Both the position numbers and the translations under genes were made by a program. The notes below the pieces were generated by a model, which did no database searches, had not been told where the DNA came from, and saw only the letters and a list, made by a program, of their open reading frames with translations. Below are positions 30,225 through 60,168 of a DNA stretch of 64,000 nt, one piece after another (positions within the stretch are counted from its first letter, which is position 1; each line of letters begins with the position of its first letter). This stretch comes from Candidatus Rokuibacteriota bacterium (GTDB lineage: Bacteria > Methylomirabilota > Methylomirabilia > Rokubacteriales > CSP1-6), in the NCBI GenBank assembly GCA_003220225.1, contig QHRU01000037.1:1-64000 (forward strand), written 5' to 3'.

Positions 30225-30413
30225 ATGCCGGCCAAGGTCCCGTGGCTCCCGTCCGTCCTCCCGCCGGGCGCCCGTCCGGAGCGCTGCCCCCGCTGCGGGC
30301 GGATGGCGCTCATCCCCTGGACGCTCCGTCGCGACAACGCCACGAAGGCGATCCTGAGGACCTGGGTGTGCACGGAATGCCAGACGCTCGTGGAGCGCCC
30401 CGAGCCGGAGTAG
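30225..30413 (+). CDS. Small zinc-ribbon protein (62 aa)
   Basis: MPAKVPWLPSVLPPGARPERCPRCGRMALIPWTLRRDNATKAILRTWVCTECQTLVERPEPE. Confidence 0.65.
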   Translation: MPAKVPWLPSVLPPGARPERCPRCGRMALIPWTLRRDNATKAILRTWVCTECQTLVERPEPE

Positions 30414-30952
30414 CCGGTATCGTCGCGCGCTGGCAGCCCTGGGCCGGCGACGGCCTCGAGCATCTCGTCGTTCACGAGCGTCCGGACGGCGTGGCCGCCG
30501 AGTCCGTCGTCGTCGCCGACGGGTTCGCCGCACGCTACCGCATCGTCTGCGACGCCGGGTGGCGCACACGCCGGCTCGAGGTCGCGCTCGTCGGCGCCGA
30601 GCGCGGGCTCGTGTTGGCCGGCGACGGCCGCGGACACTGGACCGACGCTGCCGGCGCCGCCCTCGTCGCGCTCGACGGCGCGCTCGACGTCGATCTCACG
30701 GCCACGCCCTTCACCAACACGCTGCCGATCCGGCGCCTCGGGCTGGCCGCGGGCCGCACCGCCGAGATCCTCACGGTGTACGTGCGCGTCCCCGAGCTGA
30801 GCGTCGAGGCGGACCGGCAGCGCTACACGTGCCTGGAGCCCATGCGGCGGTACCGCTTCGAGTCGGTGGACGGTGATTTCACGCGCGACCTCGAGGTGGA
30901 CGCGCACGGCCTGATCGTCGTCTACCCCGGCCTGTTCCGTCGGGTCGGCTAG
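30377..30952 (+). CDS. Putative glycolipid-binding family protein (DUF1089-like)
   Basis: ATPFTNTLPIRRLGLAAGRTAEILTVYVRVPELSVEADRQRYTCL...RYRFESVDGDFTRDLEVDAHGLIVVYPGLFRRVG; start uncertain. Confidence 0.7.
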   Translation: MPDARGAPRAGVAGIVARWQPWAGDGLEHLVVHERPDGVAAESVVVADGFAARYRIVCDAGWRTRRLEVALVGAERGLVLAGDGRGHWTDAAGAALVALDGALDVDLTATPFTNTLPIRRLGLAAGRTAEILTVYVRVPELSVEADRQRYTCLEPMRRYRFESVDGDFTRDLEVDAHGLIVVYPGLFRRVG

Positions 30953-30992
30953 AGCGTATTGACGAAGTCGAATCCGACGCCCGCGGCGGCGA

Positions 30993-31114
30993 GAACGGTC
31001 CAGATGCTAGGCGCCGACGAGCGCACGACTGAGGCGTAGGCCGCCTACGTCGCAGGGAGGGCGCGAGGAGGCGGGCCGCTGCCGCGTCCTCGCGAACGAC
31101 GCAGATGGACCGTT
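30993..31114 (-). repeat. Structured intergenic element, copy 1
   Basis: AACGGTCCA...TGGACCGTT arms around core CAGATGCTAGGCGCCGACGAGCG...AACGACGCAGATGG shared with copy 2. Confidence 0.85.
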
Positions 31115-31127
31115 ATCGGCGCCGCGG

Positions 31128-32156
31128 CTAGAGCGTGTTGACGAAGTCGATCAGCTGCCGGAGCCGCGCGTACGACGAGCGGTTGAACGGCACGAGCAGC
31201 CGCGGCAGATTCGGATACTCGTTGTACTCCTGCGGGAATGGCCCCGGCGCCTGGTCCACCGGCCCCTTGAGCACGTCCTCGAAGCGCTGCTGGATCACCG
31301 CCAGATCCGTGTCGCGCAGCGGGCGGGTCAGCCGGAACACCAGGTTGTCGCCCACGATCCGCGAGGAGTGATAGACGCGGTAGAACGTCGTCAGCTGCTC
31401 CACCGCCTGGTCGACCGTGTCGACGATGCGGTAGAACGACGTGTCGATGGGATCGATGAGATCCTGTGCGGCGAGCGTGTCGCGCACGAAGGCGTCCCAC
31501 TTGCGCCAGTACGGCGTCTGGTCGGTCTCCACGAGCACCATCGGCACGATGGTCGCCTTGCCCGTCTGCATCAGCGTCAACACCTCGAACGCCTCGTCCA
31601 TCGTGCCGAAGCCGCCCGGGAAGAGCGCGATACCGCTCGCCTCCTTCACGAGGAAGAGCTTGCGCGTGAAGAAGTACTTGAACGTGATGAGCTTGGGATC
31701 GGAGGCGATCCACGGATTCGCCTCCTGCTCGAACGGCAGCCGGATGTTGAGGCCGAACGACCGCTCGCCGCCGGCGCCCTCCTGCGCGGCGCCCATGATG
31801 CCGGCGCCGGCGCCGGTCACCACCATCCAGCCCGCTTCGACCATGCGGCGGCCGAACATCAGCGCGGCCATGGCCGCCGACTGTGTGGGCGCCGTGCGCG
31901 CGGAGCCGAACACCGTGACCTTGCGGACGTCGCGGTACGGCGCGAACACCTTGTACGCGTACCGCAGCTCCTTCAGCGCCGTGTTGGTGACCTTGAGGTC
32001 GCCGGTGGATGCGCCGTCCTCGTAGAGCTTCAGGACGGTCGTCAGCATGTGCTGGAAGTAGCCGCGGCGGTCGGAGGGCACGCCGAGGACGTCGAGCAGG
32101 TCTACGGTCAGCCGATTGGCTTCTTCGTTCTGTAACGCGTACCGACGATCGGGCAC
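31128..32156 (-). CDS. LOG/TIGR00730-type Rossmann-fold protein
   Basis: MVVTGAGAGIMGAAQEGAGGERSFGLNIRLPFEQEANPWI...ALFPGGFGTMDEAFEVLTLMQTGK; GTG start. Confidence 0.9.
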   Translation of the reverse strand: MPDRRYALQNEEANRLTVDLLDVLGVPSDRRGYFQHMLTTVLKLYEDGASTGDLKVTNTALKELRYAYKVFAPYRDVRKVTVFGSARTAPTQSAAMAALMFGRRMVEAGWMVVTGAGAGIMGAAQEGAGGERSFGLNIRLPFEQEANPWIASDPKLITFKYFFTRKLFLVKEASGIALFPGGFGTMDEAFEVLTLMQTGKATIVPMVLVETDQTPYWRKWDAFVRDTLAAQDLIDPIDTSFYRIVDTVDQAVEQLTTFYRVYHSSRIVGDNLVFRLTRPLRDTDLAVIQQRFEDVLKGPVDQAPGPFPQEYNEYPNLPRLLVPFNRSSYARLRQLIDFVNTL

Positions 32157-56806: not shown

Positions 56807-57492
56807 GACCGGAACAACCTCAGGTCGAGCCTCGCGTGGCGCAGGCCGGCGAGCTCGAGGGCGGGAGTGAACGTCCACATGTCCTCGGCCGTCGCGCGCG
56901 CGGCCTCCGCGGCGAGCCGCGCGATGCGCGGGCGCGCGCCCGCGAGCACGCGCTGGCCGTCGAGCTGGCCGAGCGTGAGCAGTCGCAACCCGGCGCCGAC
57001 GAGCAGCGCCGCCGTCGAGTAGAGATAGGCAGCGGCCGCCGTCTCGCCGCCGGCGCCGAACCGCCCGGCGGCGGCGCCGAACGCCGCGGCGTGATGGCCG
57101 GGCGCGAGCCTCTCGTCGATCGCGCGCGCGACTCCCGTCAAGAACGCGTCGTCGCCGAGCGCGGCGGCGACACGCGCCGTCTGCCGGCCCATCTGGCGGC
57201 TCGCCGCGCGGAATTCCGGCACTGCCTTCATCGCGTCCACGCGCGCGTCGAGCTCGCACCACGCGGCGAGGTCGCCGGCCGTCGCCAACCGCGTGGCGAT
57301 GGCGACGGCCACGGCGTCGCCCGGGCCCGCCGCGCCCTCCAGGTGCGCGGTCACGAAGGCCTCCAGCCCCGCGCGGTCCCTCACGCGCCCCTCCTGAGCG
57401 TAGGTTTCCAGGCCGAAGGAATGGGCGAAGCCGCCCGCCGGGAAGAGCCCGTCGCCCAGCTGGAGCAGCGCCAGCAGCGCGTCAGTGGTCAT
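56803..57492 (-). CDS. ureF: Urease accessory protein UreF
   Basis: [30 protein letters not shown]. Confidence 0.94.
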
Positions 57493-57946
57493 GGTCGTGA
57501 CGGTGGCCGGCGCCGAGCGGCACGAAGATCGACTGCACGCGCTCGAACGGCACGTCGAGGCGGCCGAGCAATTGCTCCATCGCGGTGTCGTCCGGCAGGA
57601 GCAGGCGCTCGCCGTCCAGCGCGAGGGTGAAGTGACGGTTGCCGACCTCGTAGGCGATGCGCAGCGCCTCGTCGCGCGAGCGCGGTGTCACCGCCAGCAC
57701 CGCCTCCGGCGCCGCCTCGATCACGACGTACCAGTCGATGGCCACGTGCAGGATGTCGCCGGGCGTGAGCATGCTGCCGGTGGGCAGCGCGAGCGCGAGC
57801 GTGCGTCCGGCCTGCGTGGTCACGCGGCGCCGGCCCCAGCGGCGTTCCTCCGCCGTGAGCACGAGCGAGTCCCGCTCGCGCCGTGAGAGATCGGCGTCGT
57901 GCACGTGCACGTGCGGCCGCGTGATCACGACGACCGGCTCGGTCAA
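57482..57946 (-). CDS. ureE: Urease accessory protein UreE
   Basis: LTAEERRWGRRRVTTQAGRTLALALPTGSMLTPGDILHVA...YEVGNRHFTLAL; short His-rich C terminus; TTG start in ORF track uncertain. Confidence 0.9.
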   Translation of the reverse strand: MTEPVVVITRPHVHVHDADLSRRERDSLVLTAEERRWGRRRVTTQAGRTLALALPTGSMLTPGDILHVAIDWYVVIEAAPEAVLAVTPRSRDEALRIAYEVGNRHFTLALDGERLLLPDDTAMEQLLGRLDVPFERVQSIFVPLGAGHRHDHDH

Positions 57947-57983
57947 CGAGCGCCCAACCGTGCGAACAATGTTGAATCGAGAA

Positions 57984-58100
57984 GGGCGATCAAAACCGGC
58001 CAGATGCTAGGCGCCGACGAGCGACGACCGAGGCGTACGCCGCGTACGCCGCAGGGAGAAGCGAGGAGGCAACGACGCAGATGGCCGGTTTTCATCGCCC
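57984..58100 (-). repeat. Structured intergenic element, copy 2 (between ureC and ureE)
   Basis: 19-bp arms GGGCGATcAAAACCGGCCA / TGGCCGGTTTTcATCGCCC around the core shared with copy 1. Confidence 0.88.
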
Positions 58101-58102
58101 GT

Positions 58103-59817
<1,715 letters not shown>

Positions 59818-59821
<4 letters not shown>

Positions 59822-60168
59822 GCGCGGCGCTCCCACTCGGCCAGCTTCCGGAGCGCCGCGTCCTTCGCGGCGCCGGCGGTGAGGCCGTTCAGGCCGTGGA
59901 CCTGGCGCGCGCCGGCCAGCTCGACGAGCGTCACCCGCTTGGCGTCGCCGGGCTCGAAGCGCACCGCGGTGCCCGCGGGGACGTTCAGCCGCATGCCGAA
60001 CGCCTGCGGCCGATCGAACCGCAGCGCGCGATTCACCTCGAAGAAGTGGAAGTGCGAGCCGACCTGGATCGGCCGGTCGCCGGTGTTCTCCACGGTGAGC
60101 TCGAGCGTCCGCCGGCCCGCGTTCGCCTCCACGTCGCCGCTGTCGAGCAGGTACTCGCCTGGAATCAC
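59818..60168 (-). CDS. ureB: Urease beta subunit UreB
   Basis: [53 protein letters not shown]. Confidence 0.97.

Follow-up and report, generated by a model that had tools for sequence, protein, structure and literature searches.

REP elements are dispersed, imperfect palindromes with conserved mismatches that lie between co-directional and convergent genes; they adjoin the 3' ends of upstream ORFs, and their termini supply TAG stop codons (PMC3733652). The element that we describe here shares all of these traits. It differs from REPs in its size, which is 117–147 nt compared with 20–40 bp, in its CTAG-like ends, where REPs carry a GTAG/CGTC tag, and from REP/RAYT/BIME elements in being built of in-register tandem G·A steps. 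Moreover, REP/RAYT genomes carry a RAYT flanked by repeats, whereas most hosts here lack RAYT and the RAYT loci examined are unlinked to the element. Given these departures in size, tag and RAYT, we describe the element as working like a REP rather than as being one.

A second family of interest was reported in 2009 for Geobacter metallireducens as a 'multicopy' family of 24 intergenic 'short RNA elements' with the central palindrome GRCGTAGCGCTGCTACGCC, which also occur in other Geobacter species and in Desulfotalea (PMC2700814; alignment in its Additional file 4). Like the element here, that family is intergenic and multicopy, and GRCGTAGCGCTGCTACGCC is nearly the same as the hairpins GGCGTAGCGGCAGCTACGTC and GGCGTAGCAGCGCTACGCC of our Desulfuromonadales-type copies. 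When compared by the central palindrome alone, the two are likely one family, although the body text of that paper does not analyse how its members fold, on which strand, or where they lie. Apart from the papers on Geobacter and on REPs, the literature yielded nothing matching for Rokubacteria/NC10, and a search with a literal sequence string returned no paper. The family has probably been seen before; what appears to be undescribed in the searchable literature is how it folds and on which strand, its stop-codon rule and its range.

Two copies of the element lie behind stop codons in the analysed window

The window, i.e., the whole stretch of DNA that was analysed, comprises 64,000 nucleotides of a Candidatus Rokuibacteriota genome. 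An initial annotation of its letters had pointed to two look-alike segments, and both are present where it placed them. Their features are as follows, where R1 denotes a model built from six copies of the window's own genome.

30981–31127, + strand (here the GA strand): copy 1, full extent, from its inverted-repeat arms; R1 match at 30984–31124, 98.4 bits
30981–31007, + strand: left arm of copy 1, an inverted repeat ending in CCAGATGC (tandem G·A half)
31033–31051, + strand: terminal hairpin of copy 1, GGCGTAGG-CCG-CCTACGTC, from sequence and fold
about 31062–31094, + strand: extra internal hairpin of copy 1, CGCGAGGAGGCGGGCCGCTGCCGCGTCCTCGCG, a sub-variant of about 33 nt
31101–31127, + strand: right arm of copy 1, from GCAGATGG (tandem G·A half) outwards, touching the minus-strand stop codon
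30242–30952, + strand: ORF with the convergent gene to the left of copy 1, glycolipid-binding domain (PF06475, E=5e-51 on 30491–30949)
31128–32156, - strand: LOG/Lysine_decarbox family gene, whose stop codon abuts copy 1 (PF03641, E=7e-25)
30946–30971: left copy of a 26-bp direct repeat, a duplicate of the 3' end of the minus-strand gene, 25/26 identical to 31125–31150
31125–31150: right copy of the 26-bp direct repeat, the native 3' end of the minus-strand gene
57984–58100, + strand (here the GA strand): copy 2, full extent; R1 match of 132.9 bits, 1–118 of 118
58032–58050, + strand: terminal hairpin of copy 2, GGCGTACG-CCG-CGTACGCC, from sequence and fold
58103–59899 (start not fixed), - strand: ureC, urease alpha subunit (PF00449, PF01979)
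57482–57946, - strand: ureE, the next urease operon gene (PF02814, PF05194)

The terminal arms that had been read for copy 1 (AACGGTCCA/TGGACCGTT) and copy 2 (AACCGGCCA/TGGCCGGTT) are exact, both compensated pairs within them are real, and the same is true of the two hairpins, which differ by one swap of G-C to C-G and one change of G-U to G-C. Likewise, the distances of 13 nt and 2 nt to the minus-strand stop codon are correct for segments at 30993–31114 and 57984–58100. Although the position of copy 1 was thus well placed, its outer limits were not, as the arms reach 30981–31127; they measure 27 nt each, are 85% complementary and hold a conserved C·C mismatch.

Copy 1 lies between two convergent genes, of the glycolipid-binding and the LOG/lysine-decarboxylase families, the former of which probably has its true start downstream of the ORF start at 30242. 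Sequence resembling the extra hairpin of this copy is also found in a partial copy on contig C31 and in an array in genome G002. Copy 2 is located inside the urease operon, between ureC and ureE as identified by Pfam, with the ureC stop codon TGA 2 nt away and the C-terminus ...YFLF* intact.

The surroundings of both copies have peculiarities of their own. Copy 1 is flanked by the 26-bp direct repeat, which duplicates the 3' end of the minus-strand LOG/Lysine_decarbox gene, and the stretch with the glycolipid-binding gene (30413–30984) is missing at this locus in two sister species. Antisense to ureC, at 59374–59666 (+), there is a match of 84 bits to the Rfam entry 5_ureB_sRNA, which probably reflects conserved urease coding sequence and not an sRNA.

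The element belongs to a large dispersed family

Contrary to the assumption of two copies only, the window's own genome contains at least 14–17 matches to R1, and further matches were found in 21 of 30 relatives. Both window segments are members of a large dispersed family. Within the window's phylum, it occurs in 45 of 95 draft genomes, with 1 to at least 38 copies in each, while a second model, built from 77 copies, matched 72 of the 118 draft genomes of a Desulfuromonadales-type order, with up to at least 30 copies. The terminal motif alone was counted 100 times in one NC10 genome. Among the matches listed in a pattern scan of named genomes were Rokubacteria, NC10/Methylomirabilota, Deltaproteobacteria, Desulfuromonadales, Syntrophales, Gemmatimonadetes and others. 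Rfam had no entry for the element at gathering or relaxed thresholds, and plasmid and phage collections gave no match, so that a plasmid or phage context was rejected.

In the window's own genome, two loci (L011 on G000:C31 and L012 on G000:C98) consist of tandem arrays with units of 129 and 145–146 bp, whose copies are near-identical and in which every unit carries the adjoining flank.

A rod with tandem G·A pairs is supported by covariation

The GA-rich strand of the element folds into a rod of about 120 nt with in-register tandem G·A pairs. From the outside inwards, this rod comprises a variable stem with a C·C mismatch, an AAAA-GG/CC stem, a tandem G·A step (CCA-GA-TGC / GCA-GA-TGG), more G·A-interrupted steps and a GGCGTA..TACGCC hairpin. 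Folded as RNA, the + strand of copy 2 reached -72.7 kcal/mol (z = -8.4) and its - strand -63 kcal/mol (z = -5.0); for the + strand of copy 1, the z-score was -4.8. Folds of this stability lie far outside what chance would give.

Covariation was assessed in a set of 77 diverse, non-redundant copies. Under the proposed structure 93.6% of the cells were paired, compared with 78.9% after shuffling, and 32 of the 39 pairs showed changes on both sides. The covariation score was 0.404, versus 0.144 in the shuffled control, which ignores relatedness, and 0.05–0.08 with the partner columns slid, a control that does not ignore it; the margin is large, and the observed values were reached in none of 500 shuffles. 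Not all conserved positions are canonical pairs, as the CCA-GA-TGC/GCA-GA-TGG step is nearly invariant (G·A in 74 and A·G in 75 of the 77 copies), GA facing GA is the most frequent of the internal loops, with 198 occurrences in 82 copies, and the C·C mismatch of the outer stem is common (44/77). The initial annotation had proposed a selected, structured, multi-copy element, which is borne out by the many copies and by a covariation that is genuine. What would have spoken against it, namely few copies, covariation lost with more of them or random placement, was looked into, and each outcome favours the proposal.

NC10/Rokubacteria copies (L240–L269, L118–L197) carry a third repeat, CTAGCAGGNTGCTGAAAAAC, about 30 nt outside the left arm. 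Since this repeat pairs with the right end without the C·C mismatch, two alternative pairings compete.

The fold is conserved on the GA strand

In 80 of 82 copies, the fold of the GA strand was more stable than that of the CU strand, which is itself strong, with a mean of -61 kcal/mol. Only the GA strand has the tandem G·A steps; at these places its complement has T·C mismatches. Furthermore, G·T plus T·G combinations at paired positions numbered 91 and 170, versus 8 and 12 for A·C plus C·A, with much of this excess contributed by a small number of columns in which T·G or G·T is the standing pair. Where such a pair gives way to C·G, T·A, G·C or A·T in other copies, the A·C intermediate is almost absent. 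The standing T·G pair lies two positions away in Desulfuromonadales-type copies and is again T·G there. When the standing columns are set aside, the excess falls to 49 versus 36, and at least 19 of these 36 come from two poorly aligned columns. Taken together, fold stability, G·A steps and wobble bias indicate that the fold is selected on the GA strand, either as RNA or as single-stranded DNA. As this strand is antisense to the adjacent gene at most co-directional loci, the element is not simply a 3' UTR hairpin of that gene's mRNA.

Copies usually sit directly behind stop codons and in a preferred orientation

We then took a census of 215 copies from 191 flank clusters, with gene calls from a home-made codon model. 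In 163 cases the neighbouring gene at the 3' end of the GA strand is directed toward the element, and for 111 of these 163 the right-hand stop codon is 1–6 nt away. At co-directional loci, with each flank cluster counted once, antisense placement of the GA strand outnumbers sense placement by 94 to 30 (p=7e-9), and this orientation is replicated in the Desulfuromonadales-type clade (36 versus 11, p=4e-4), where 40 of 53 stops lie within 6 nt on either side. Divergent sites are few (7, compared with 40 convergent ones in one count and 36 in another). The proposed 3'-end bias in one orientation is therefore strong and reproduced in a second clade. In the minority orientation, it is the opposite end that abuts the upstream stop. 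The stop then lies 21–22 or 28–30 nt from the start of the model, a distance that coincides with the end of the extra terminal repeat in NC10/Rokubacteria copies.

The adjacent stop codons are enriched for TAG (61% versus 32% elsewhere, p=8e-11), preceded by C in 56 of 91 cases at elements versus 60 of 193 elsewhere; TGA and TAA are used as well. Because the protein end is intact in the cases inspected, such as ureC, the stop codons there are native.

A G+C hairpin followed directly by a T-run, as in an intrinsic terminator, was found nowhere in the region around copy 2 (57400–58700), and a promoter pattern was not found near this copy either. The T-tract is interrupted in many copies. Copies are located inside the urease operon and, in the S10 operon, between rpsJ and rplC, two names that come from reading translated ends and not from a family search. 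This location argues against a strong terminator, and a simple terminator in these two operons is unlikely.

Ends of the element and search for a mover

The right end of the element mostly reads TG-CTA(G), with a preference for CTAG. NC10/Rokubacteria copies have complementary CTAGCAGGNTGCTGAAAAA repeats at both ends, and the left terminal repeat is present in 67 of the 191 flank-cluster representatives; it is missing in the window's own genus. In view of its AAC...GTT ends and single-strand folding, the element might be compared with integron attC sites.

RAYT (PF01797) was absent from G000, G001 and G018 and from 10 of 16 further genomes surveyed, including G002, and three RAYT loci that were examined carry no element. 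RAYT was consequently rejected as the mover, being absent from most hosts or unlinked to the element. A search of the draft genomes G030 and G011 for a parent IS revealed no +/- pair of the element's ends at 1–3 kb.

Resident copies change in pairs and are frequently lost

The copy between ureC and ureE also occurs in a sister species, where it is 95% identical compared with 73% for the flanking spacer, and orthologous copies within the genus have an identity of 0.91–0.95, versus 0.66–0.80 for adjacent spacer. Between species of the genus, the copy behind a gene ending in ...NVERVRGL* has undergone paired changes (A-T to C-G, A-T to T-A, and GGGG/CCCC to GCTC/GAGC). Further paired changes were observed in copies behind ...REPIIF* (two genera) and in the rpsJ-rplC spacer (several genera), and one affects the conserved core, where CCAGATGC/GCAGATGG became CCAGATCC/GGAGATGG. 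These in-place paired changes at orthologous loci support selection on resident copies.

At the copy-1 locus, one sister species has no element and another has an internally deleted copy. Elsewhere, the corresponding place behind the stop is taken by remnants of deletion, by a remnant in inverted orientation or by palindromic repeats unrelated to the element. A clean insertion with target duplication was not seen among the empty and remnant sites of sister species. The rpsJ-rplC and SDR loci of one genus were considered as clean empty sites and rejected, as they look like deletion remnants or diverged spacers. Comparisons within the same genus are compatible both with insertion and with the deletion of a pre-existing copy. 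Judging from these alignments, the structure is maintained after insertion, yet copies are often lost.

What kind of element is it?

Could the element act as RNA? One version of this idea places it in the upstream gene's mRNA, as a terminator, stabiliser or Rho site at the transcript's 3' end. The tight placement behind stops and the orientation bias would fit, and so would the pyrimidine-rich CU strand that such an mRNA carries, given its strong mean fold of -61 kcal/mol. This strand nevertheless folds less well than its complement, and its wobbles are A·C mismatches. Some copies do have an A-tract/T-tract flanking a G+C hairpin behind stops, as in intrinsic (bidirectional) terminators, but the T-tract is not conserved, copy 2 lacks the terminator pattern, and the element is found within operons, for instance at ureC-ureE and rpsJ-rplC, in which ending the transcript would do harm, all of which makes this version improbable. 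The claim that an RNA acts in the transcript of the preceding gene was not supported, as in most loci the conserved GA strand runs opposite to the transcription around it. In another version, the GA strand itself is transcribed as a structured non-coding RNA, an sRNA or processing element that is antisense to the adjacent gene or part of the 3' UTR of a convergent gene. G·T wobbles and tandem G·A pairs conserved on one strand are typical of RNA folds, the structure is kept at orthologous loci, and the similar Geobacter family has been predicted to be RNA (PMC2700814); however, single-stranded DNA is also stabilised by G·T and G·A pairs, no promoter pattern was found near copy 2, and in most co-directional loci this strand runs antisense to transcription. 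We regard a transcribed GA strand as unlikely. Of the two options in the initial wording, 'RNA or palindromic element', palindromic DNA fits better than a transcript-end RNA, and RNA as such is the less likely form.

On the DNA side, the element resembles a MITE in being short and non-coding, with a target preference and, in part of the family, terminal inverted repeats. A MITE of a DDE transposase would have CAGGNTGCTGAAAAA as terminal repeats, duplicate a CTAG target and carry the rod as a mere passenger; IS481 has a similar CTAG-type target. Complementary CTAG-bounded ends in NC10/Rokubacteria copies and the enrichment of CTAG stops speak for this origin. It is nonetheless doubtful, because the window's own genus lacks the terminal repeat, the ends are not paired at IS-like spacing in G030 or G011, neither a parent IS nor a clean target duplication was found in these genomes and sister-species sites, respectively, and the conserved internal rod with its one-strand constraint would be left unexplained. 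Could the palindromes instead be neutral debris, with template-switch (quasipalindrome) correction, and not selection, preserving their complementarity? In favour of this are the frequent deletion, truncation, inversion or tandem duplication of copies and the many loci at which sister species have none. Such correction would, however, be expected to turn the conserved tandem G·A, C·C and T·G mismatches into perfect pairs, it does not predict the strand bias of the wobbles, and the element is more conserved than its spacer, so that we consider neutral debris very improbable.

We favour, with moderate confidence, a REP-like, non-coding, dispersed palindromic DNA element that probably spread via a folded single strand and was then inherited vertically with its structure under selection. 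Copies would be spread by a putative recombinase, other than RAYT, that recognises the folded single GA strand and prefers CTAG/stop-codon sites. Insertion at or just behind a stop would be tolerated because it spares the coding sequence and, in short spacers, the ribosome-binding site of the next gene. Resident copies may then be selected for a hairpin or cruciform that could serve as a binding site or as a local topology/insulation element at gene 3' ends, roles that have been proposed for REP/BIME elements. The cause of selection may be a binding site, a cruciform at transcribed 3' ends or an antisense RNA. Three points count against the REP-like reading: a purely selfish repeat would not usually persist so long at fixed loci, no clean insertion with target duplication was seen at the sister-species sites, and the candidate recombinase was not found, with RAYT missing from most hosts. 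A bolder proposal, which we consider speculative and unlikely, is that of a cross-phylum, strand-specific element, in which the tandem G·A rod opposite the gene acts in place at 3' ends, as antisense RNA or as a template-strand DNA hairpin, and is served by a dedicated, putative binding/transposition protein unrelated to RAYT.

Among structured repeats that Rfam lacks, this family is one of the better supported, with thousands of copies likely across Methylomirabilota-type and Desulfuromonadales-type genomes, core operons included, and with a fold on which selection clearly acts, on a strand that can be named. Should the strand assignment be correct, it separates a '3' UTR RNA' from 'single-stranded DNA or antisense', which is rarely possible for REP-like elements, and points to a putative recombinase or binding protein.

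Other rearrangements at the same spacers

At locus L291 (G001:C17), a remnant of the element is present in the opposite orientation while two genomes of other genera carry the normal orientation, which suggests flipping or re-insertion. Different palindromic repeat families were found directly behind the stop in the rpsJ-rplC spacer (L301, L316, L304, L305, L306) and in the ureC-ureE spacer (L074, L077, L078) of related genomes, among them hairpins of the AGCTGATAGCTG type and a family with GGGGGGCCCC..GGCCCCCC. Spacers adjacent to stop codons look like general hot spots. Lastly, at the SDR gene locus, L314, L300 and L310 have tandem duplications of short units, which include the last codons of the gene together with a palindrome.
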